DNA of 11,695 nucleotides from a bacterium (GCA_025774205.1 JALGWK010000077.1:1-11695), one strand, 5' to 3'. Shown: positions 1-11,228, counted from the stretch's first letter. The notes: a model not told the origin generated them from the sequence alone. Numbers and translations: made by a program.

Positions 1-1224
1 CTGGTGGTGCTCCTCATGGCCGGGCTCGCCTCGAGCTACTCGACCTCCACCGAGGTCAACCTGGCGGGGAACGAGCGGATGGAAGCCCAGCTCTTCTACC
101 TGGCCGAGGCCGGGATCGCGCAGGTCAAGAAACACCTCAATACCCTCGGGGTTCCGATCACCGGGACAGGTCCGGACGGTACCGAGCCGGTGCAGGTCTT
201 CTTCGAAGAACCGATCGGCCAGGCGGGGGGGGCGCAGGGGCTCTTCACCGCCTACGTCGATCCCCAGGCGCGGCAGGAGGGGAAACCGACGAAGTTTGTC
301 GCTATCACTGTTCGGGCCTGGATGCCGAACTCCCCCAACTTCACCGACCTGGAGCAGATGGCCAGTGGTACCACCATCTGGTGGACGACCGGGGACGTCC
401 TGCGGGGACCGGTGCACTCCAACGACCAGCTCAATATCAACGGCGATCCGATCTACTTGAAGGAGGTGACCTCCTCTGCCTCCACCACCAACGAGGTCAA
501 CCCGAGCAATCCCGATTTCAGGGAGGGCATCACCTTCGATGTCCCGACGATCGAACTGCCGAACGACACCGGTCTGCTCCGGGCGAAAGCACAGGAAGCC
601 GACGGACTCTACTTCGGCGGCAACGCCGATCTCGTGCTCGGGTATGACAGCGTCACCGACTTCTCCTACGTCGATGTCGATGTCGGGGCCGGTTTCGTCC
701 GGTACCAGCTGCCCGCGAACGGTGTTATCCATGTTGAAGGCACCGTGACCCTGAAAGGTCTTCTGAACGGACAGTTGACGATCGCCAGCACCGGGGACAT
801 GTACCTGCTCGATGATATCCTCTACAATTCCGATCCGAGGGTGAATCCCGACAGCGATGATCTGCTCGGACTGGTCTCGGAGCAGAACATCATCGTGGAT
901 GATACCGCGGCGAACCTGGATGCCGGTGACGAAACCTTCATGTGCATTTTGATGGCGCTCAACACCTCCTTCACGGTCGAGAACTACGCATCGGGAACCC
1001 CCAGGGGGAGTCTGAAGATAATCGGCGGTGTTATTCAGAACCGACGCGGACCGGTGGGCACCTTCAACAGTGGCGGAATCGTGTCCGGCTATTCAAAGGA
1101 TTATGCCTGGGATTTCCGGCTGGCCGACAATCCCCCGCCTTCATTCCCGACGACCGGTGTAATCGTCACCCTGTCGTGGAAAGAGCGGGATCCGTCGTAC
1201 GATATCTCCTCGAATGTCTTCTGA
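1..1224 (+). CDS. PilX-like type IV pilus minor pilin/assembly protein (5' partial)
   Basis: The frame is already open at base 1 and ends at TGA 1222-1224 (407 codons seen). The true start, with the prepilin leader, lies upstream. The first residues are the end of a hydrophobic helix (LVVLLMAGLASSY), followed by an amphipathic stretch, NLAGNERMEAQLFYLAEAGI. This is the typical PilX N-terminal pattern in which the pilin helix continues into the globular part. Around bases 385-480 the protein reads TTGDVLRGPVHSND and then NINGDPIYLKEVTSSA. This resembles the GPVHSN signature I associate with DUF4900-type domains in PilX-like proteins. The rest is beta-rich, with no cysteine pair in an obvious pilin loop and one Cys near base 945. 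PilX-type minor pilins prime or modulate pilus assembly and sit in the inner membrane or pilus tip. The gene is followed by a 216-base gap with its own promoter, so it probably belongs to an upstream minor-pilin operon. The family call rests on N-terminal pattern and context. Confidence 0.7.
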   Translation: MVVLLMAGLASSYSTSTEVNLAGNERMEAQLFYLAEAGIAQVKKHLNTLGVPITGTGPDGTEPVQVFFEEPIGQAGGAQGLFTAYVDPQARQEGKPTKFVAITVRAWMPNSPNFTDLEQMASGTTIWWTTGDVLRGPVHSNDQLNINGDPIYLKEVTSSASTTNEVNPSNPDFREGITFDVPTIELPNDTGLLRAKAQEADGLYFGGNADLVLGYDSVTDFSYVDVDVGAGFVRYQLPANGVIHVEGTVTLKGLLNGQLTIASTGDMYLLDDILYNSDPRVNPDSDDLLGLVSEQNIIVDDTAANLDAGDETFMCILMALNTSFTVENYASGTPRGSLKIIGGVIQNRRGPVGTFNSGGIVSGYSKDYAWDFRLADNPPPSFPTTGVIVTLSWKERDPSYDISSNVF

Positions 1225-1440: not shown

Positions 1441-2490
1441 ATGGCAGCGAAACGGGGAAAAAGCACTGTCGGGCTCGATATCGGGTCTTCGTCCATCAAG
1501 GTGGCGCGTATCGCCCATGGGTCGGCGAGCTACTACCTTGAGGATTACGACGTGGAGCCGATGCCGGCCGGTGCCATCGTCTCGGGGGAGATCCGCGATC
1601 GCGACCTCGTCGAAGCGGCACTGAAGGACGTCATCAAGCGGAACGGGCTGAAACGGGCCAATGTCGTGGTCAGTCTCTCGGGCTTCGCGGTTCTGCACGA
1701 TACCCTGACCATGAAGGTCATGAGCGAGGACGATGCGAAGGACGAAGTCTATTCCGAGGTCGAGAAGATCAGTCCCTTCTCCATCTCCGAGGTTACCCTC
1801 GACTACAAGATCATGGAGGTGGAGGAGGCGGAAGACCAGATGCGGGTCCTCCTGGTAGCGGCCAAGAACGACGTTCTCGAAGACCGCCTCGAGATCCTCA
1901 ACAACCTCGGCGTGCGCCCGGTCATCGTCGATGTGGACATCTTCGCTCTCTACAACGCCTTCGAAGCGAATTACGACATGGCCGATTACCGGGGTGCGGC
2001 CCTCATGAACATGGGTGCCAACACCACCAGCATCACCTTCGTCTTCGAAGGGGGATTCCACTCGGCGCGCGATCTCTCCATCTCCACCGGACATTTCAGC
2101 GATCGTCTCGAAAAGGAGATGAACCTGCCGCAGGAGATCGCTCTCGACGTGCTGTATGGATCGCCCCCGGAAGACCTGGATGTGGAAAAGGCGGCTAAAG
2201 TGATCTCCGGGGTGGGGGCCGAGCTGAGCGATTCGATCGAGATGGCGGTCAGTTACTTCCGCTCCACGGTCGATCTCGACCAGCTCGATGTGATCATGCT
2301 CTGTGGCGGCGGGGCCGCAATCCCGGGCCTCACCAGCCTGCTGGAAACGAAGAATGGTGTGCGGACCGAGATCGCCAATCCGCTCCGCAGCATTGAGTTC
2401 AATCCATCTCTCTTCAAAGACGCGGATATCGACATGGTCGCACCGACTTTGACGGTCGCGGTGGGACTGGCACTGAGGAAGTCGGGCTGA
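1441..2490 (+). CDS. pilM: Type IV pilus assembly protein PilM (actin-like ATPase)
   Basis: The 349-residue product has the usual PilM length and the ATP-binding signature of the actin/FtsA-like fold. The phosphate-1 loop is VGLDIGSSSIKVARI (residues 10-24), phosphate-2 is ALMNMGANTTSIT (187-199), and the adenosine motif is VIMLCGGGAAIPGL (284-297). The stretch SPFSISEVTLDY (111-122) matches the conserved region after subdomain 1C in PilM. There is no signal peptide, as expected for the cytoplasmic ring protein that binds the PilN tail and links the PilN/PilO platform to the assembly machinery. The ATG at 1441 is the first in-frame ATG after the promoter. Its ribosome site is weak (GGTAGG at 1430-1435). 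It is the first gene of the operon, and its TGA is separated from the pilN ATG by one base, so translational coupling is likely. Confidence 0.95.
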   Translation: MAAKRGKSTVGLDIGSSSIKVARIAHGSASYYLEDYDVEPMPAGAIVSGEIRDRDLVEAALKDVIKRNGLKRANVVVSLSGFAVLHDTLTMKVMSEDDAKDEVYSEVEKISPFSISEVTLDYKIMEVEEAEDQMRVLLVAAKNDVLEDRLEILNNLGVRPVIVDVDIFALYNAFEANYDMADYRGAALMNMGANTTSITFVFEGGFHSARDLSISTGHFSDRLEKEMNLPQEIALDVLYGSPPEDLDVEKAAKVISGVGAELSDSIEMAVSYFRSTVDLDQLDVIMLCGGGAAIPGLTSLLETKNGVRTEIANPLRSIEFNPSLFKDADIDMVAPTLTVAVGLALRKSG

Positions 2491-2491
2491 G

Positions 2492-3091
2492 ATGGTCTTC
2501 GAGATAAACCTGCTTCCGGAGAAGTATCGCAAGAAGAAGCTGGCGATCCATCTCGACGCGCGGGTATTCGGCGTTATCGGCGGTGCGGCTCTGATCGCTC
2601 TGCTGGTCCTGGTAACCGTCAACCAGAGCAGGATCCTGAAAAATACCGAGGAACGTCACGTGGCCCTTGAGGCCGAGAAATTAATCGTGGAGGTGACCGC
2701 CAACCGGGTCCGCAGCCAGAAAGAAGAGATACGGAACGTCAACACCCGGATCGCCACCCTGCAGGCACTGGGGGGGCGCAATGCCATCCAGCTGCAGGTA
2801 CTGGAGATCGTGAGCAACAGATTGCCTGATGACGTCTACCTGCTCGACTTCAACCAGACCGTTGACAGGCAGAGTCAGCAGGCGGGGGGAGCCTTGTCCT
2901 TCCGGCCCGACCAGATCCTGAACTTCCGCGGGATCGCCCTGCGTAAAGAGGGGATCACCGAATGGCTGACGCAGCTGCAGGATGAGGATCTGATCCAGCA
3001 GGTGCAGACCAATTACCTGCGACCGACACGGGTCGAGGGCGTTGATATCTACGAGTTTTCACTGACCGCGGTCATGAACATAGCCGGATGA
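2492..3091 (+). CDS. pilN: Type IV pilus inner-membrane protein PilN
   Basis: The 199-residue protein starts with MVFEINLLPEKYRKKK, which contains the INLLP motif that PilN inserts into a groove of PilM. A single transmembrane helix follows at about residues 24-43. A heptad-like, charged coiled-coil segment runs from 45 to about 92, and a small alpha/beta periplasmic domain from 93 to 199 contains DVYLLDF and FRGIALRKEGITEWL. This is the canonical PilN layout. PilN heterodimerises with PilO in the inner membrane. The ATG at 2492 starts one base after the pilM stop, with TGAGGAA at 2474-2480 inside pilM as a likely ribosome site. A run of seven Gs (2770-2776) encodes LGGRN. Confidence 0.93.
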   Translation: MVFEINLLPEKYRKKKLAIHLDARVFGVIGGAALIALLVLVTVNQSRILKNTEERHVALEAEKLIVEVTANRVRSQKEEIRNVNTRIATLQALGGRNAIQLQVLEIVSNRLPDDVYLLDFNQTVDRQSQQAGGALSFRPDQILNFRGIALRKEGITEWLTQLQDEDLIQQVQTNYLRPTRVEGVDIYEFSLTAVMNIAG

Positions 3092-3098
3092 GCAGAAC

Positions 3099-3686
3099 GT
3101 GGACCTGAGCGATCAGAAAACGCAGATCATACTGGTTATAGTCCTCGGTGTGGCCGCACTGGTCTATGCCTGGTACACGTACATGTACACTCCGCGGAAA
3201 GAGGAGATCGATACCCTTAACGTAAATATCGAAACCCTGGAGCAGGAAATAGACCTGTTCCAGATCGAAGCGGATCAGGAAGAGGCGGTGGCGGTGCAGC
3301 TGGCTGACGCACGGCAGCGATGGTCCGCAGTCCTCCTGCAGTTCCCGACCGAGGCGAAGGAGGACGAGCTCCTCGCCAACATGAGCCTGGCCGGAGAGGC
3401 CAGCCGACTCTATCAGATCGATTTCGAGCGGGGGGGGCGGCGCGTCCAGGAACTCTACATAGAACAGGATTACACCATCCGGCTGCTGGGTGAATACCGG
3501 AATCTGGGCCGCTATATTGCAGTCCTGTCCGGCCAGCCTCGCCGGGTGAGTGTCGCGCGGATGCGGATCGCGCACCCGAGCGCCGCCACAGGAGCTTCCG
3601 GTGGTACCTCCGCGGGCCCGCTGCCGACCGAGGAAGAGGTCATCATCACCCTGACTGTCACGTCATACGTGGTTATAGAGAGATAA
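3099..3686 (+). CDS. pilO: Type IV pilus inner-membrane protein PilO
   Basis: The 195-residue protein has a short cytoplasmic tail, one transmembrane helix (about residues 9-29) and a coiled coil (about 34-74). A ferredoxin-like periplasmic domain follows. The hallmark GEYRNLGRYIAVLSGQPRRV (131-150) corresponds to the conserved PilO motif G-x-Y-x-x-[IL]-x-x-[FY]-[IL] followed by R-[VI]. A low-complexity Ala/Gly/Ser loop at about 161-174 precedes the last beta strand. PilO pairs with PilN to form the periplasmic part of the alignment complex and contacts PilP. The start is GTG at 3099, seven bases after the pilN stop, with GGATGAG (3086-3092) as a modest ribosome site. An ATG at 3088 is out of frame and stops after a few codons. 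A run of eight Gs at 3430-3437 encodes RGGR. Confidence 0.9.
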   Translation: MDLSDQKTQIILVIVLGVAALVYAWYTYMYTPRKEEIDTLNVNIETLEQEIDLFQIEADQEEAVAVQLADARQRWSAVLLQFPTEAKEDELLANMSLAGEASRLYQIDFERGGRRVQELYIEQDYTIRLLGEYRNLGRYIAVLSGQPRRVSVARMRIAHPSAATGASGGTSAGPLPTEEEVIITLTVTSYVVIER

Positions 3687-3697
3687 CATGAAATTCC

Positions 3698-3708: not shown

Positions 3709-4740
3709 ATGAGGTTGGCACCGATGCTCCTGCTTGCGGGAGCTGTCTCGTTTTCCCTCTCCACACAATCGAAGGTGGCGGGGCAGGAGGAGAGTACCCC
3801 GGGCAGGCTGCAGGCGGATCTGGTCGATATTACCTCGATCGAACTCATCAGAGGCTACAGCGAGGACCAGTTCACGCTCCTGGTGCGATGCAATATCTGG
3901 CGGGAGACGAACTGGTTCTGGGTACATCACAGGACATTTGTGCTCGACATTCGGCAGGCCTATATGCCCTTCCGCGGCCAGGCGCTCGGACAGCTGCTGC
4001 TGTCGCAGGTGGGTGGAGTAAGGGCCAGCCAGTTCATGGAAGGTATCAACCCCATTGCCCGGATTGAGATCGATGTGATCAAGGAGAAGGGGGTGGAAGT
4101 GTGGTGGACGACGGAGGGGATTGAAGTGATGTTCAACATTCCCGGACCATCGGTTCCGTCACCCACGCCGACGGGCAGGACTGATCGGGGCCCGACCTCT
4201 ACTACTGCGGTAACCCCACCACCCACGACTCCGGTCTCCGAAACTCCGGTTCCTGAAACTGCGGTTCCAGAAACTCTGGTCACCGAAGCGCCGGTTCCCG
4301 AAACTCCAGTCTCCGAAACACCGGTTTCAACAACTCCGGATTCCACAGCTCAGGTTTCCACTCCGCCGATTTCCACGCAGCCGGAGAGCACGGTGACTGA
4401 GGTACCGGCCGGTCGGGAGTTGCCCTACCGTCCCGGTACCAGGGTCAACCCGTTCGATCCGCTGTTGAAACCACTTGACGATACAGTTGACCTGACCAAC
4501 ACCCTGACGCGGCCGCTTCCCAATGCCGAGGCATTGCAGCTGACCGGTATCACCTGGCTGGCGAGTCGACCCGATGAATCGGTAGCTCTTCTCAGGGATG
4601 GTGAGGCGCGGAACTACATGTTGATGAAGGGTGATCGGGTGAAGTACGGATATGTCAGCCATGTGGGAGAGCGTGAGATCATCTTCGTGCTCGACATATA
4701 TGGCCGGCATAAAGTGGTAACTTTGAAGTTAAACCCTTAG
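3709..4740 (+). CDS. pilP: PilP-like alignment protein carrying an N-terminal AMIN-like domain
   Basis: The product is 343 residues from ATG 3709, or 350 from ATG 3688. A signal peptide (about residues 1-25, ending near SKVAG) exports it. It has no lipobox, and its only cysteine is in LVRCNIW. Residues about 41-142 look like an AMIN domain: a beta-sandwich pattern with TFVLDIRQAYMPF, VRASQF and ARIEIDV. These match the AMIN scheme of a buried VLD strand, a basic R-x-x-Q-F turn and alternating strands. A Pro/Thr/Ser/Glu linker (about 144-233) follows. The last ~105 residues (237-343) resemble PilP, with RVNPFDPL (245-252), LQLTGITWL (277-285), MLMKGDRVKYGYV (304-316) and a terminal strand pair. 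PilP links PilN/PilO to the secretin N0/N1 domains. It is usually a lipoprotein of about 170-180 residues, so this one is about twice the usual size and anchored differently. Position between pilO and pilQ supports the call. AMIN domains bind peptidoglycan, so this protein may tether the complex to the cell wall (inference). Confidence 0.8.
   Translation: MRLAPMLLLAGAVSFSLSTQSKVAGQEESTPGRLQADLVDITSIELIRGYSEDQFTLLVRCNIWRETNWFWVHHRTFVLDIRQAYMPFRGQALGQLLLSQVGGVRASQFMEGINPIARIEIDVIKEKGVEVWWTTEGIEVMFNIPGPSVPSPTPTGRTDRGPTSTTAVTPPPTTPVSETPVPETAVPETLVTEAPVPETPVSETPVSTTPDSTAQVSTPPISTQPESTVTEVPAGRELPYRPGTRVNPFDPLLKPLDDTVDLTNTLTRPLPNAEALQLTGITWLASRPDESVALLRDGEARNYMLMKGDRVKYGYVSHVGEREIIFVLDIYGRHKVVTLKLNP
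4231..4350 (+). repeat. 15-base minisatellite encoding the PilP linker, eight imperfect copies
   Basis: Eight consecutive 15-base units encode PVSET, PVPET, AVPET, LVTEA, PVPET, PVSET, PVSTT and PDSTA. Degenerate copies (QVST, PPISTQ) follow to about 4380. The period is a multiple of three, so gain or loss of a unit changes linker length without shifting frame. The encoded segment is extended and acidic/proline-rich and joins the AMIN-like and PilP-like domains. Confidence 0.85.
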
Positions 4741-4746
4741 GAGAGG
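4739..4746 (+). promoter_or_regulatory. Ribosome binding site that favours the GTG at 4755 for pilQ
   Basis: AGGAGAGG overlaps the pilP stop codon. It lies eight bases before GTG 4755 but directly abuts GTG 4746, which is too close to serve that start. The later GTG is therefore preferred. Confidence 0.5.
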
Positions 4747-4754
4747 TGAGGCAC

Positions 4755-6044
4755 GTGTCACGTACGCGGGCTCCAATCCTGATCCTTCTGGCGGTTATCT
4801 GTCTGGTCTCGACGGGTTCCGTACAGGCCCAGATGCAGACTCAGAACGGACTGATCATCGCTCTCGGATTCGAAGACGCAGATGTCAGGTCGGTACTCTC
4901 CACCCTCGCGGATTTCGGCGGAGAGAACATCGTGCCCGATAACGGAGTTACAGGTCGGGTGACCATGCAGCTGCGCAATGTGGACTGGCTCGACGCGCTG
5001 GAAGCGGTCATGTCCCAGATGGACCTGGTGTGCATTCCCACCGTCGAGTCGCTGCGGGTGGCGGAGCCGTATGATACCGAGTTCATACAGGTGCTTCGCC
5101 GGTCCGATTTCAACACCCGCATGCAGCAGCAACTGCAGCAGGTGCAGGACATCGAGACCAGCAAACCGCTCGAGACAAGAATCATCAAGCTTGACCACTC
5201 GCGGGTTATCGATATCCAGCAGGCGATCCAGTCCCTGGGATCACCTGACGGGATCATCACCACCGATCCGCGCACGAACAGTCTCATCATCCGCGATTAT
5301 CCCGAAAGCCTGCAGCTGATTGAGGAGGTCGTGGGCGAACTCGATATATCGGTGCCCCAGATCAGGATCGAAGCCAAACTGCTGGAGGTGGATACCGACC
5401 GCATCCACCAGCTCGGTCTGACCTGGGACCTGAATATCTCCGGCACGAATCCGCTCATCATCTCGGGAACGTCCGACCTTTCGACCAGCAACGTGATCTC
5501 GGGCACGTTCGGGGCCTCTACCGCGAGTATGACGCTTGACGCCACCATCACAGCCCTGGAGAACCAGGGTGTAGCACACACTGTTGCCAGACCGAGCATC
5601 TCGGTCCTCGACAACGTCCAGGGCCGTATCTTCATGGGTGAGAAGGTGCCGCTGCGGGAACTCGACGTGGCCGGTAACGTGACAATTCAGCTCCGGGACA
5701 TCGGTATCGAACTGGTCGTCACTCCTCACGTCGTTGAAGATGACATGATCATTCTGGAACTCCTGCCGAAGCGGGAGTCGTTCCGGGTCGACCCCTCGGC
5801 GGGCATCATCGTATCGACCCAGGACGCCTCCACGACAGTCAAGGTACGGGACGGTGAAACGGCCGTCATCGGCGGGCTGAAGTCGGAGACGGTGCAGGAA
5901 GCTGATACCGGCATTCCGATCCTGATGAACATCCCCATAATCGGAGCGCTCTTCCGGTATCACACTCAGCAGGTCCAGGTGCGGGACCTGATTATCTTTG
6001 TTACACCTAGAATCGAGCGTGAGAACACGGTAATCGTGCCGTAG
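4755..6044 (+). CDS. pilQ: Type IV pilus secretin PilQ, short form without AMIN domain
   Basis: Residues are numbered from GTG 4755 (429 residues); GTG 4746 would add three. The signal peptide (APILILLAVICLVSTGSVQA, about 6-25) has a cleavage site at VQA/Q. An N0/STN domain spans about 33-102 (ALGFEDADVRSVLSTLADF, then VTMQLRNVDWLDALEAVM). One N1/Secretin_N domain spans about 138-197 (TRIIKLDHS, DPRTNSLIIRDYPESL). The secretin core runs from about 200 to 420. Its C-terminal signature is clear: VTPHVVEDDMIILEL, DGETAVIGGL, GIPILMNIPIIGALF and RDLIIFVTPRI. Oligomers form the outer-membrane pore through which the pilus passes. PilQ proteins are often over 600 residues, with one or two AMIN domains ahead of N0. 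Here N0 follows the signal peptide directly. No C-terminal pilotin-binding extension is visible; the protein stops soon after the last strand. The gene starts 14 bases after pilP. Confidence 0.95.
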   Translation: MSRTRAPILILLAVICLVSTGSVQAQMQTQNGLIIALGFEDADVRSVLSTLADFGGENIVPDNGVTGRVTMQLRNVDWLDALEAVMSQMDLVCIPTVESLRVAEPYDTEFIQVLRRSDFNTRMQQQLQQVQDIETSKPLETRIIKLDHSRVIDIQQAIQSLGSPDGIITTDPRTNSLIIRDYPESLQLIEEVVGELDISVPQIRIEAKLLEVDTDRIHQLGLTWDLNISGTNPLIISGTSDLSTSNVISGTFGASTASMTLDATITALENQGVAHTVARPSISVLDNVQGRIFMGEKVPLRELDVAGNVTIQLRDIGIELVVTPHVVEDDMIILELLPKRESFRVDPSAGIIVSTQDASTTVKVRDGETAVIGGLKSETVQEADTGIPILMNIPIIGALFRYHTQQVQVRDLIIFVTPRIERENTVIVP

Positions 6045-6092: not shown

Positions 6093-9000
6093 ATGCGTAG
6101 CAAGCCACTGATCATTCTGGGTTCTCTTGTCGTCGTTGCGACCCTCGTCATCATCGCCTGCGACGGCGCAGCAACGGATTCGCCACTGGAACTGCGGGCA
6201 CCTGATCTGATCGTTGACGAACAGCGGATCCCCGCCGATGGTATTTCCAGTGTTGATGTGACGGTCACGGTTCTTTCAACCGAGAACAAAAAGGTTGAAA
6301 ACGTCCCCATCGAGTTTACTGCCCTGTCCGTCGCTGACGACTTGCAGGAGCTGGGGACACTCAGTCACACCAGCGTCCTGACCGACTCCGAGGGGGAGGC
6401 GACTGTCACCCTCACCAGCATCGAGAGTACCCGGGATACATCTGCCGTCGTCAGCGCGTCGATCGGTGACACGACGGGAACGGGAGTACGGGTTAATCCG
6501 AAGACCGGGGCGGTGGTCCCGGCCGTTTCAGCTCCTCCCGGCGCGGTGGTGATCGTCTCCTCGGCTCCGCTCGATGAAGAGGAACTGGAAGCGAGACTGC
6601 ACCACATCCTGCTGCAGCGGGCCATGGAGAAGGCCTCGGAGCGGCAGCGCGGGCTTTCCTCGATCCTGGGGCAACCGCAGACCGGTGAAGGCGCCGGAGT
6701 CCAGGCTGTCGATCTGACAGAGCAGGTGGTTGTCTTCGAGGGGATCGTCATCTCACTGACCTCGAGCAAGTCAGGGCTGCCGGCCGACGGAGTGTCGACA
6801 GCCGTGATCGAAGCCCGCGTGCGCACCAGCCGCGGGATCAACGTGCAGAGCATGCCTCTGGTCTTCTCCGCCGGCGAGGGCAAGATCACATCAACCGCCA
6901 CCACCGACCAGTTCGGTTCGGCCACCGCGACCCTGACGGCCGCGATCACCGATTCAACCAAAGATATCATCGTCGTGCGGATGGGATATACCCTCACCGA
7001 CACCCTTGAGCTGCCGTATGTGCAGCCGGTACTGACGATCTCTTCCGATGACGCCAATCTCGCCGCCGATGGTTCCTCGACCACGACCCTCCGCGCGCGG
7101 CTCCTCACGCCGGCGGGTAACCCGGTTGCGGGCGCCAGTGTCGCCTTCTCGCTCACCGGGCCGAACGATGCCTCCATCACGGTCCAGGGCACGACCAGCA
7201 GCAGCGGTGAGGCTACGGCGATACTCAAGGCCGGCGGAACGGCCGGTACCGCAACGATCACGGCCGGTTTCAGCAGCCTCTCGGCTGCTACAGCCGTACA
7301 GCTCCTGGGGCTCAATGTCACCCTGGCTTCGGATAATGCGAGCATCCAGGCCGACAACGCATCCACCACGACGATCAGGCTCGTGGCGAAGACACAGACC
7401 ACCTTCGCGACCGATCTGGGGACGATTCCTTCCACAGCGACGACGAACTCCTCCGGTATCGCCACGGTCGATCTGACGAGCGGGGACACACCGGGCACCG
7501 CCACGGTGACCGCGAACCTCGGCAGCGTCTCGGTCACGACCACGGTCTCCTTTACCGCCAAAACCCTGCTGTTGAGTATCGCCGCCGAGGAGGGTTCGAT
7601 CCTCCGTGATGGACTTGCCGAAGTGGATATCACCGTCGTCGCCCGAGACCCGATCGGCAATCTCCTCAATGGCCAAGACGTTACTTGGGTATTAACAGGC
7701 GGCGGCGATAAGATCTGGCCCGCATCCGGCCAGACCAGCCAGGGAACGAATCCGGCCGGTTCCCATACCACTACCCTGACCTCCGATGCCAGTTCAGTCG
7801 ATGCCACTGCGACCATCACGGCAACGGTGGGGGACAGCACGACGAGCATCGATATCGACCTTGCCGGTGTCAGCCTCACCTCCACCGTTGATGCAGATAC
7901 GATCCTGGCCAACGGGAGCGAATACACCGTCTTCAGATGGCAGGCCACCGAGACAACCAGCGGTAGAGTCATCCCGAACCACCAGATCGGGATCAGCAAG
8001 GTGAGCGGTCCGAATGTAACGCTCACGAGCATGTCGAATACTACCAACGCGTCGGGGATCGCCACGGTGACGGTCACGAGTACGAACAATTCGGGTGACC
8101 TGGTGATGGAAGCCCTGCTGGGCAACGTTACGCAGCAGGAAACCCTGCATCTCCTGGCCGACCAGTTCTCGCTCACCCTCACCAGTGACGAGTCGACTCT
8201 GCTGAGAGATGGCGCGGAAACAGCCGAAGTGAAAGCGCTTGTTCTGGACAAGCTCGGTTATCCGGTGGCCGACCAGCGGGTTGACTTCGCGCTGACCTCG
8301 GGCAGCGGCACGCTCGCGCACGCGTTCGCGAACACCAACGCCAGTGGCGAAGCCACCGTCGATTTCACGGCTGACGTTGCCACCACCAACGTGGATGCCG
8401 ATCTTCAGGCCTCTATCGGCGCCCTTACCGACAACCTCACCATCCCGCTCTATGGGGTATTGATCTCGATCTCGACGTATCCCGATTCCCTTGTCGCCGA
8501 CCGGAACAACGAGGTAGAGGTGGAGGTGACGGTGAAGGAGGCCGGTACGAGCACCCCGCTCACCGGTCGCACAGTGTACTTCGCGGTGGGACCGGGTACC
8601 TTCGGAACGATCACGGGCAACGACGTGACCGACAACCGGGGGATCGCGATCGCGACTTTGACCGGAGATACGACAGCCTCATTCACCGGTACGGTCTATG
8701 GTCGACTTGGAGATGATCCGACGACCGCTCTGGTGGACAACACCACCCTGAGCATTGTAGCGCCAGTGAGAAACGTCACCCTCACCAGCGACGAGGAGGG
8801 GATCCTTCGCAACGACCTGTCCTCTGCCACCCTCACCGCGCGAGTGACCGACAATAACGGAGATCCGATCGATTCCCAATCGGTAGCCTGGAGGCTGGTC
8901 GGAGCCACGCCTGCCGGTGTTTCCCTCTCAGTCTCCTCGAGCCGGACCACTTCAACCGGTGACGCCACAGTCATTCTGACCGGGGACGCCGGTAGTACAG

Positions 9001-11228
9001 ATGCCACCGCGACTGTTCAGGCAGCCGTCGGCAGCGTGACCGCCACCTTCGACGTCACGCTCCAGGGGGTGACGATCTCGATCGAGGCCTCTCCCGGCAC
9101 CATTACGGCCAACGGAGTTGATGTTGCCGAGATCGAGGCGACCCTGCGGGAGACCGTGTCAGGTCGGGGTATCGCTGATGAAACAGTCACCTTCGCGACC
9201 ACCCTGGGTACGATCGGCGGGACCGCCACAACCGATGCCAACGGCAGGGCCACCGTCAACCTGATCAGCGGCAGGACCGCCGGGACAGCGGTGGTGAAGG
9301 CCTACAACAGCTCCCTCAGCGCCGGTATTATCGATTCGGTCTCGGTTGTCATCGCCGATCCGGTGGCCGGTTCCGTCGAACTCCTCGCAACCCCCGATGT
9401 CCTTCAACCGAAGGGTACCGGCGGTACGGAATCCTCGACCATAACCGCCACGATCCGCGATGACGCCAATGAGCCTATCCCCTCCGGCGTTCCGGTCGCC
9501 TTCGCGCTCTTTCCGTCCAACGCGGGCACGTTCGAGGGGGGGGCGGCAGTTGACACGGTGTTGACGGACTCTGATGGTGTCGCCACCACCAGTTTCCAGA
9601 GCGGCACCGTCGCGACGCCGGTCACCATCTCGGCTGTCGTGGTCGGCACTTCCATCCAGAGCAGTGACGCGATCCTGGCGGTTGCCGCCGGTCCGGTAGC
9701 GCACCTGGACATCGCGGTCACGCCGATCTCCTGGAACGATGACGGTCTCTACGAGCGGGAGCTGCACATCGTCGTCACCGACACCTTCAGCAACGCGGTT
9801 GCCAACCAGCTCATTCTGTGGCGTGGTGAACCCGATTCGCTGGAGAACGCGGTGAGGCCGATCGGAGCGGAATCGCGAACCGATGCCACGGGGGTGGCGC
9901 ATAGCCTCCTGATCTACAACCGGGGTATGGAACCGATCGAGTTCACCCTCTATGCCGAGGCGGAGAACGGCGTGATCCAGTCCCGGACGCTCAATGAGGG
10001 GTATGTCTCAACAACGGTCGGTTCGAATACGTTGCTGCGGGACGGATTGGACTACACCAGCCTGAGCGCGACCGTACAGGACCTGTTCGGCACCAAGGTC
10101 GGTCTGGTCGCCATCGGCTGGTCGAATCCCTCCGGGATCGGCACCCTGGCCGGATCTGCTTCAATCACCGACCAGGACGGGGAGCCGACCGGTACGTTCC
10201 TCTACCAGAGCGACGCCAACAACGCAGATACTACGGCAACGATCTATGCGACGTACATGTCAACCCTCACCGACAGCGTGACGATCAATCTCACGGGGGT
10301 CTCGCTTGATGTCTCAGCTTCTAACGATACGCTGAGTGCCAACGGGATCACAACCTCAGCGATCTCGGGCAGATTCTTCGAGACCACCTCGCAGCGGAAT
10401 CTCGTGGGTTACGATGTGGGCTTCGCGGCGAAACTGGGAAGCATCACCGGCAGCGCGACCACCGGTGCCGATGGAGTCGCCACGGTTGCCTACACCGCTC
10501 CGAGCACGGCTGGTTCCGATACGATCATCGCTACTTATGGGGGGATTTCTGACACCACCTTCGTAGAGTTGATTACTGCCAGCTCTATATCGATAGCCCT
10601 CGAGGCTAGTGAGACGGCTCTCCAGGTCATGGGTACAGGCGGCCTTGAATTGTCGACCATCACTGCCACGGTGCGGGACGCGAATGGCAATACGGTACCT
10701 GGGGGAGTTCCTGTCAGTTTCACGGTATCTCCGGCTGGAACTTTCCGAAGCAACGATCAGGATACTACCGTCGTCACCAACAGCAGTGGACAGGCGATTG
10801 TTGTGTACCAGAGCGGTACCACTCCCGGGACAATGGAATTCACCGTCACTTCCGATGCTGCCACCGCAAGTGCAGCCCTGCTGACTGTTGCTTCCGGGCC
10901 TGCGACGCAGATCCTGCTTGGTTACGACAGCAATGCTACAACTCCGGTCGCTGGATTCTCAACTATCGACATCTCGGCCCTGGTATCTGATACCTATGGC
11001 AATACGGTGGTTGACGGTACCCAGATTTACTTCTCCATCACGGTGAATCCGGACAGGGGAGCAATCGTGCCGATGGGTGAGACAGCGGATGGTATGACAA
11101 CAGCTGCCTTGAGCTATACAACAGCTGCCTTGAGCTATCCTGCATCCGAGATCGGGAATACATTAACGGTGCAGGCGAAAACTCTGGATGGAACCGTATT
11201 GAAGACCATCGTGGTAACCCTTCCCTGA
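6093..11228 (+). CDS. Giant Ig-repeat (Big_1/invasin-like) lipoprotein at the end of the pil operon
   Basis: The 1711-residue protein starts at ATG 6093, preceded by GAGGAG (6081-6086) at ideal spacing. Residues 1-22 are a lipoprotein signal (SLVVVATLVIIAC) with Cys23 as the lipid-modified residue. It is the only cysteine in the protein, and Asp follows at +2. The rest is about 16 Ig-like domains of 83-111 residues. Typical Big_1 features recur: a start such as LTSDEST, then [AR]-[DN]-G, a G-[NDY]-P-[VI] turn, and T-[TD]-x-x-G-x-A-[TI]. Approximate domain starts are 36, 219, 314, 409, 492, 595, 694, 791, 894, 995, 1094, 1205, 1305, 1405, 1499 and 1607. Residues 141-218 are an insert with a charged helix (about 160-192). 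Domain 4 is short. Such proteins are usually adhesins or cell-surface stalks. Here there is no transmembrane barrel, LysM or sorting domain, so anchoring is by lipid. It lies 48 bases after pilQ with no terminator between, so co-transcription is likely. A pilus-related or surface-adhesion role is inferred. The final two domains are less GC-rich than the middle of the gene. Confidence 0.88.
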   Translation: MRSKPLIILGSLVVVATLVIIACDGAATDSPLELRAPDLIVDEQRIPADGISSVDVTVTVLSTENKKVENVPIEFTALSVADDLQELGTLSHTSVLTDSEGEATVTLTSIESTRDTSAVVSASIGDTTGTGVRVNPKTGAVVPAVSAPPGAVVIVSSAPLDEEELEARLHHILLQRAMEKASERQRGLSSILGQPQTGEGAGVQAVDLTEQVVVFEGIVISLTSSKSGLPADGVSTAVIEARVRTSRGINVQSMPLVFSAGEGKITSTATTDQFGSATATLTAAITDSTKDIIVVRMGYTLTDTLELPYVQPVLTISSDDANLAADGSSTTTLRARLLTPAGNPVAGASVAFSLTGPNDASITVQGTTSSSGEATAILKAGGTAGTATITAGFSSLSAATAVQLLGLNVTLASDNASIQADNASTTTIRLVAKTQTTFATDLGTIPSTATTNSSGIATVDLTSGDTPGTATVTANLGSVSVTTTVSFTAKTLLLSIAAEEGSILRDGLAEVDITVVARDPIGNLLNGQDVTWVLTGGGDKIWPASGQTSQGTNPAGSHTTTLTSDASSVDATATITATVGDSTTSIDIDLAGVSLTSTVDADTILANGSEYTVFRWQATETTSGRVIPNHQIGISKVSGPNVTLTSMSNTTNASGIATVTVTSTNNSGDLVMEALLGNVTQQETLHLLADQFSLTLTSDESTLLRDGAETAEVKALVLDKLGYPVADQRVDFALTSGSGTLAHAFANTNASGEATVDFTADVATTNVDADLQASIGALTDNLTIPLYGVLISISTYPDSLVADRNNEVEVEVTVKEAGTSTPLTGRTVYFAVGPGTFGTITGNDVTDNRGIAIATLTGDTTASFTGTVYGRLGDDPTTALVDNTTLSIVAPVRNVTLTSDEEGILRNDLSSATLTARVTDNNGDPIDSQSVAWRLVGATPAGVSLSVSSSRTTSTGDATVILTGDAGSTDATATVQAAVGSVTATFDVTLQGVTISIEASPGTITANGVDVAEIEATLRETVSGRGIADETVTFATTLGTIGGTATTDANGRATVNLISGRTAGTAVVKAYNSSLSAGIIDSVSVVIADPVAGSVELLATPDVLQPKGTGGTESSTITATIRDDANEPIPSGVPVAFALFPSNAGTFEGGAAVDTVLTDSDGVATTSFQSGTVATPVTISAVVVGTSIQSSDAILAVAAGPVAHLDIAVTPISWNDDGLYERELHIVVTDTFSNAVANQLILWRGEPDSLENAVRPIGAESRTDATGVAHSLLIYNRGMEPIEFTLYAEAENGVIQSRTLNEGYVSTTVGSNTLLRDGLDYTSLSATVQDLFGTKVGLVAIGWSNPSGIGTLAGSASITDQDGEPTGTFLYQSDANNADTTATIYATYMSTLTDSVTINLTGVSLDVSASNDTLSANGITTSAISGRFFETTSQRNLVGYDVGFAAKLGSITGSATTGADGVATVAYTAPSTAGSDTIIATYGGISDTTFVELITASSISIALEASETALQVMGTGGLELSTITATVRDANGNTVPGGVPVSFTVSPAGTFRSNDQDTTVVTNSSGQAIVVYQSGTTPGTMEFTVTSDAATASAALLTVASGPATQILLGYDSNATTPVAGFSTIDISALVSDTYGNTVVDGTQIYFSITVNPDRGAIVPMGETADGMTTAALSYTTAALSYPASEIGNTLTVQAKTLDGTVLKTIVVTLP
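7566..8171 (+). repeat. A-B two-domain Ig unit, copy 1
   Basis: Encodes residues 492-693. The A domain carries ILRDGLAE (503-510); the B domain carries ILANGSEYT (604-612) and ETTSGR (620-625). Conserved Arg505 of LRD is 200 residues before its counterpart in the next unit. Confidence 0.7.
8172..8771 (+). repeat. A-B two-domain Ig unit, copy 2
   Basis: Encodes residues 694-893. The A domain carries LLRDGAETAE (703-712). The B domain is more divergent, with VADRNNEVEVEV (801-812) and GTSTPLTGRTVYF (818-830) in place of ANG and ETTSGR. The LRD arginine is Arg705, against Arg505 in copy 1 and Arg906 in the next unit. Confidence 0.65.
8772..10004 (+). repeat. A-B-C-D four-domain Ig block, copy 1
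   Basis: Encodes residues 894-1304. The A domain has ILRNDLSSA (904-912). B has TANGVDVAE (1005-1013) and ETVSGRG (1020-1026). C has LQPKGTGGTESSTITATIRD (1104-1123) and ends in AAGPVAH (1198-1204). D has VVTDTFSNAVANQL (1227-1240). The same four domain types recur in the same order in the next block, so this is a duplicated supra-domain unit. Confidence 0.75.
10005..11225 (+). repeat. A-B-C-D four-domain Ig block, copy 2
   Basis: Encodes residues 1305-1711. The A domain has LLRDGLDYTS (1314-1323). B has SANGITTSAI (1415-1424) and ETTSQRN (1430-1436). C has LQVMGTGGLELSTITATVRD (1510-1529) and ends in ASGPATQ (1600-1606). D has LVSDTYGNTVVDG (1630-1642). Matching landmarks sit 402-410 residues after those in copy 1. 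The copies are well diverged, so the duplication is not recent. Confidence 0.75.
11097..11138 (+). repeat. Perfect 21-base tandem duplication in the last Ig domain
   Basis: Bases 11097-11117 and 11118-11138 are identical, end to end. Each encodes TTAALSY, giving residues 1669-1682. The duplication is in frame and free of mismatches, unlike the diverged domain repeats, so it looks like a recent slippage event. It adds seven residues near a predicted strand of the final domain. Confidence 0.95.

Follow-up and report, generated by a model that had tools for sequence, protein, structure and literature searches.

In a type IVa pilus (T4aP) operon from a sparsely sampled bacterial lineage, the peptidoglycan-binding AMIN domain is likely to have been relocated from the secretin PilQ to the N terminus of the PilP-like protein, which would at the same time have lost its lipid anchor and would now provide the tether to the cell wall. 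The operon lies on the window, i.e., the whole stretch of 11,695 nucleotides that was analyzed (contig G000:C268), from a fragmented genome assembly (3.09 Mb, 527 contigs, 86% complete). Among the genomes compared there are three close relatives, all of one family, with all others related at the domain level only. A search of viral contigs gave no match.

Operon organization

The genes between 1441 and 6044 run head-to-tail on the plus strand, with the PilP-like gene between pilO and pilQ:

1441..2490, plus strand: pilM, actin-like cytoplasmic T4aP protein (Pfam PilM_2, E 5.2e-56)
2492..3091, plus strand: pilN (Pfam PilN, E 3.5e-7)
3099..3686, plus strand: pilO (Pfam PilO, E 2.8e-12)
3709..4740, plus strand: AMIN-PilP gene, encoding a signal sequence, AMIN domain, disordered linker and PilP homology-region (HR) domain
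3811..4152, plus strand: predicted AMIN domain, residues 42-155 in the 3688 frame (AlphaFold, structural matches, hhalign, conserved core)
4153..4434, plus strand: disordered linker with Pro/Thr/Glu-rich repeats (PVSET/PVPET), pLDDT 32-46 over most of its length
4435..4737, plus strand: PilP HR domain with an NPF motif (HR profile, E 5e-17)
4746..6044, plus strand: pilQ, 432 aa, with signal peptide, N0, N1 (Secretin_N) and secretin domains and without AMIN

The frame of the PilP-like gene is open from an ATG at 3688, and a second ATG at 3709 has GGAGG a few bases upstream; given this better ribosome-binding site, 3709 is probably the true start. Residues are numbered here in the 3688 frame, in which residues 41-142 of the 3709 product become 48-149. 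Elsewhere in the same genome, contig C402 carries a strong match to pilT and an adjacent ATPase gene, which makes a retractile type IVa pilus plausible. Two further secretin loci are found on other contigs, in type II secretion-like clusters. In one of these (L035, at about 2700 of contig C480) the gene for the second secretin, a type II-like one, is split over two reading frames; this may be an error of sequencing or assembly, or else a frameshift that is real.

The operon is flanked by two other genes. Just 5' of pilM (window 1-1224) lies a gene for a PilX_N-like protein with a DUF4900 domain, of which the N terminus is lost at the contig end. Directly 3' of pilQ (6093-11228) a lipoprotein-like protein of 1711 aa is encoded, with ~13 Ig repeats of the Big_1/invasin type (Pfam, E 1e-109). 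Similar big repeat proteins occupy the same position in G003 (L031 3690-5351) and in G060, a genome of another phylum (L033 6328-9000), which suggests that the Ig-repeat protein is a conserved surface partner of the pilus.

The N-terminal domain of the PilP-like protein

Pfam gave no match at all on the PilP-like protein, the AMIN and PilP models included, and Pfam and NCBIfam by themselves called neither domain. As its AMIN domain becomes visible only through relatives and folds, we do not read the silence of Pfam as absence.

An AlphaFold model based on an alignment of 18 sequences contains two confident domains, at residues 46-150 (pLDDT about 92) and about 276-350 (pLDDT about 93). Residues 44-152 of the model superimpose on the AMIN domain of E. 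coli AmiC with Z 13.7 (104 residues, 2.4 A), on that of M. xanthus PilQ with Z 13.6 over 106 residues, and on the B2 domain of N. meningitidis PilQ with Z 11.2. The nearest unrelated fold is a small heat-shock protein at Z 8.5; likeness at this level or below was set aside, as the beta-sandwich is common. A model built from only three sequences left the AMIN answer unchanged.

Profile comparisons agree with the fold. With hhalign, the N-terminal domain of the three-member family matches an AMIN profile made from other loci (probability 96.4, E 1.4e-9). In searches with an HMM from which the family had been left out, the orthologue L031 scored about E 1e-5 and the window protein 0.007, and all three family members score above 1000 shuffles of the window domain, which rules out similarity from composition alone. 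Against PDB sequences, a profile of the relatives retrieves M. xanthus PilQ (E 5.5e-13) and AmiC (2e-6). Pfam does call AMIN in 13 of the 18 aligned proteins, though not in that of the window, and six out of six further ones exceed the Pfam AMIN curated cut-off. The core GVRASQF..P.ARIEIDV aligns with SIRTSQF..P..RVVLD of other phyla, and residues R112, S114, Q115, R125 and D129 do not vary among 18 sequences drawn from three phyla. On the modeled structure and the profile matches, the N-terminal domain of the PilP-like protein is an AMIN domain. This upholds the original prediction of an AMIN-like domain of ~100 residues over the other outcome considered there, a fold different from AMIN. The profile checks proposed alongside, with the Pfam AMIN and PilP models, gave no hit on the window protein; hhalign for AMIN and the HR profile did match.

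As an alternative, the AMIN-fold domain on PilP might have ceased to bind peptidoglycan and instead dock a protein (PilN/PilO, a pilotin or some other protein of the envelope), with the machine anchored otherwise or not at all. AMIN-like folds may indeed serve as protein-interaction modules: the N-terminal domain of PflA, in complex with PflB, is among the structural matches (Z 7.2), and the AMIN domain of C. jejuni FliO affects FlhB stability (PMC12403147). The AMIN domain of the window family is moreover divergent, and its ligand could have changed. However, the top matches, the AMIN domains of AmiC and PilQ, have published peptidoglycan binding, the five residues named above are invariant across three phyla, and both the mutual exclusion with AMIN on PilQ and the SPOR-bearing PilP of G060 (see below) suggest that one and the same function has been substituted. 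We therefore consider a docking module without wall binding unlikely.

Distribution of AMIN over PilP and PilQ

PilM was located in 307 of 386 diverse genomes, and PilP and PilQ were read in about 120 of the loci. The survey of related genomes called for in the original prediction thereby recovered the layout both near and far: it is identical in G001 and G003, which belong to the same family as the window, and AMIN is also carried by PilP in G011, G139 and G298, from two other phyla. All four genomes of the G139 phylum have it. In the large phylum of G011, a matching PilP is present in 89 of 98 genomes, and each of the 54 loci that were read, that of G011 itself included, has AMIN on PilP; PilQ of this phylum, typically 427-474 aa, is free of AMIN wherever its start is readable. 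Two loci of the same phylum (L229 and L230) start inside pilP and were left unscored.

The two locations exclude each other. None of the 60 AMIN-PilP loci with a readable PilQ has AMIN on PilQ, and none of the 69 loci with AMIN on PilQ has it on PilP. The median length of PilQ is 434 aa where PilP carries AMIN versus 750 aa where PilQ does. The AMIN profile misses some divergent AMIN domains on long PilQs (e.g., L040 and L141), so that counts of "none" are upper bounds; within the AMIN-PilP clade, the absence of AMIN from PilQ is settled by PilQ length.

An AMIN-encoding reading frame between pilP and pilQ in L044 resembled AMIN on PilP at first but was excluded: it overlaps the pilQ reading frame, follows a normal PilP of 219 aa, and is best seen as the N terminus of PilQ shifted out of frame. 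PilP reading frames of 298-309 aa in L088, L089, L094 and L103 encode an additional N-terminal domain (~130 residues) that follows a stretch resembling a membrane anchor, and PilQ in these loci has AMIN. L081 (2002-2955) encodes a probable PilO-PilP fusion of 318 aa, and reading frames of ~565-616 aa in L097, L114, L116 and L130 resemble PilM-PilN fusions.

In a tree of PilQ with 115 rows all AMIN-PilP loci fall into one clade (SH-aLRT 99), and a more careful tree with 41 rows recovers the same clade (support 99/98). Because of this shared ancestry the 60 out of 60 loci represent few independent events, and speak for fixation rather than repeated convergence. The clade also includes G060, the one genome of its phylum in the sample, where PilP (L033 4123-4989) has a C-terminal SPOR domain (Pfam, 9e-15) and lacks AMIN; no AMIN was detected in its PilQ. 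SPOR is another peptidoglycan-binding fold. The SPOR-bearing PilP suggests that a wall-binding function was kept rather than a particular domain. We do not claim that AMIN was exchanged for SPOR within the AMIN-PilP clade. In the 115-row tree G060 groups next to the family of the window (SH-aLRT 93), but a tree that groups the AMIN-PilP loci without G060 is 17 log units better (p-AU 0.82), and the 41-row tree is compatible with a place of G060 inside or beside them. The simplest reading would be that the wall-binding role moved to PilP once, ahead of the divergence of these phyla, or that it arose once and the operon was then transferred.

The same distribution could have arisen from two unrelated events, in which a dispensable AMIN was lost from PilQ and PilP separately gained a domain, with no relocation. 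Such losses do occur: AMIN was found on neither protein in 29 of 159 loci with a recognized PilP, although in some it is undetected or truncated, and PilQ has lost AMIN elsewhere without known compensation (PMC7545093). Yet no surveyed locus has AMIN on both proteins, and the layout is uniform within large clades, so that we hold independent loss and gain to be improbable and prefer relocation.

PilQ lacks an AMIN domain

PilQ of the window is recognized by Pfam through Secretin (6.7e-39), Secretin_N (3e-14) and, at residues 42-91, GspD_N0, the latter below the Pfam cut-off (23.4 vs 27 bits). Its top NCBIfam family is TIGR02515, PilQ (250.8 bits, for a cut-off of 284.35). Neither Pfam nor the profile reading found AMIN in this protein; with a signal peptide up to about residue 29 and N0 from about 36, there is no room for one, and PilQ passes straight from signal peptide into N0 as had been proposed from the sequence. 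The orthologues in G001 and G003 are 432 and 439 aa long and likewise begin at N0, which indicates that PilQ of the window is not truncated. The concern raised with the original prediction, that relatives might carry AMIN on PilQ and that this PilQ is merely shortened, is thus answered by the orthologues and by the 60 loci.

An artifact, by which PilQ would be truncated or misassembled, or a secretin with AMIN would be encoded elsewhere in the genome, could be suspected, since the assembly is fragmented and 86% complete and the genome has two additional secretin loci. It is at odds with the PilQs that start at N0 in G001, G003 and more than 50 further loci, and with the location of the other secretins within type II secretion-like clusters; Pfam finds no AMIN in the genome itself, though its model is insensitive here. 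We regard the artifact as essentially refuted, with a negligible chance of being correct.

Linker, HR domain and export of PilP

The linker between the AMIN and HR domains is not conserved in sequence among orthologues in the alignments, and its length ranges from 77 to 510 residues across the clade; a long linker with unconserved sequence is what is expected of a tether. In G298, pilP seems to be split over two contigs within a repetitive linker with ASKPEATKK units (L145 2817-3752 and L229 1-1551). Repetitive linkers may break assemblies in this way and hide AMIN-PilP genes.

The model of the C-terminal domain matches PilP structures (2lc4 and 2y4y with Z 9.5, the value for P. aeruginosa PilP, and 2ivw with Z 8.9, that for N. 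meningitidis), and the profile of the relatives, searched against the PDB, finds M. xanthus PilP over its C-terminal part (E 1.6e-5). A [D/N]PF motif is present in all 61 AMIN-PilPs. These structural matches (Z 8.9-9.5) confirm the PilP-like C-terminal domain initially proposed. That the protein is a GspC/GspB-type component of type II secretion, as could be argued from the fold shared by GspC, GspB and PilP HR domains (GspC HR, Z 8.9) and a weak NCBIfam GspC_delta match (E 0.0018), has next to nothing to recommend it in a pilMNO-pilQ operon with a secretin best matched by TIGR02515 (250.8 bits), where PilP structures match at least equally well, the PDB profile search finds M. xanthus PilP and not GspC, and GspC-like genes lie in separate type II secretion-like clusters on other contigs.

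In its canonical form, PilP is a lipoprotein of the inner membrane (PMC5285504). No lipobox was found in the PilP-like protein of the window, in which the sole Cys is residue 68; it was consequently filed under the PilP superfamily and not under the canonical lipoprotein type. By a simple rule, a lipobox is present in 2 of 60 AMIN-PilPs compared with 57 of 96 other PilPs. Shared ancestry confounds this difference, and among the 96 other PilPs there are 39 that lack a lipobox by the same rule. Of the two AMIN-PilPs scored as lipoproteins, L031 is doubtful and L205 probably a false positive, with a signal-peptidase-I-like site, which was nevertheless kept in the count. Roughly half of the AMIN-PilPs have an AxA motif close to where cleavage would be expected. 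The window protein has a hydrophobic helix at residues 8-29, which may act as an uncleaved membrane anchor. From these sequences, we infer that PilP may have exchanged anchoring by a lipid for anchoring to the wall.

Proposed mechanism

In P. aeruginosa, the AMIN domain of PilQ binds peptidoglycan, and PilQ recruits PilO via the contact between PilP HR and N0, while PilP binds PilN/PilO through its N-terminal stretch (PMC5285504); in M. xanthus, recruitment of PilQ to the pole needs AMIN (PMC10653833). For the operon described here, PilP would be exported and in most cases cleaved, giving a soluble periplasmic protein. Its AMIN domain would dock on (septal or polar) peptidoglycan, and the flexible linker would bridge the gap between the wall and the HR domain, and the latter would hold the N0 ring of PilQ and connect to PilN/PilO. 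With about 12-14 subunits in the ring, each could be tethered via PilP in this manner. The connection from wall to AMIN to HR to N0 would be kept, with the wall-reading step shifted to PilP. PilP would then bring PilQ to the site, the reverse of P. aeruginosa and M. xanthus, in which PilQ comes first via its own AMIN, followed by PilP and PilNO.

It is conceivable, though somewhat short of an even chance in our estimate, that across a clade of at least three phyla PilP is a soluble, wall-bound organizer of the machine, in which anchoring through AMIN (SPOR in a related lineage) replaces the inner-membrane lipid, and that it recruits an AMIN-less secretin, so that the machine would assemble in the opposite order to that of Pseudomonas and Myxococcus. 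With the genome 86% complete, an unrelated anchoring protein could also exist.

Comparison with known systems

We found no description of AMIN or SPOR on PilP in the open-access literature. AMIN domains on secretins have been proposed to track polar piliation and used to explain pilus placement (PMC10653833), whereas the domain is on PilP in at least one large clade. Predictions for this clade that consider PilQ alone can therefore be wrong, and a pore without AMIN does not necessarily mean an unanchored pilus machine. The clade can be seen as a natural experiment, according to which it would be essential that the ring is tethered to the wall at some point and not that a particular subunit carries the tether.

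AMIN-free secretins have been noted before. A survey found 27 of 197 secretins without the domain and stated that its loss "merits further investigation" (PMC7545093). Like PilQ of the window, the T4aP secretins in this group start at N0; the loss was described for the secretin only, whereas here AMIN sits on its partner PilP. FliO offers a precedent for an envelope machine that gained AMIN on one of its core components, with lineage-specific gains of AMIN or LysM, but it is a membrane protein of flagellar export, and the available part of the report describes no matched loss from a partner (PMC12403147).

Peptidoglycan anchoring of a secretin machine also varies in type II secretion, where the HR protein OutB (GspB) binds both secretin and wall, and the Legionella secretin LspD carries SPOR (PMC9239104). 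OutB belongs to another system and combines the HR fold with no AMIN, and LspD has SPOR on the secretin, the reverse of G060. Closest are the pilMNOPQ systems of P. aeruginosa, N. meningitidis and M. xanthus, which share with the window the gene order, PilM, PilN and PilO, the HR domain of PilP (the expected N0 binder), the secretin core and the class of AMIN domain. In contrast to these systems, AMIN is here on PilP, which lacks a lipobox and has a long linker of variable length, and PilQ is about 430 aa long compared with a median of about 750 aa.
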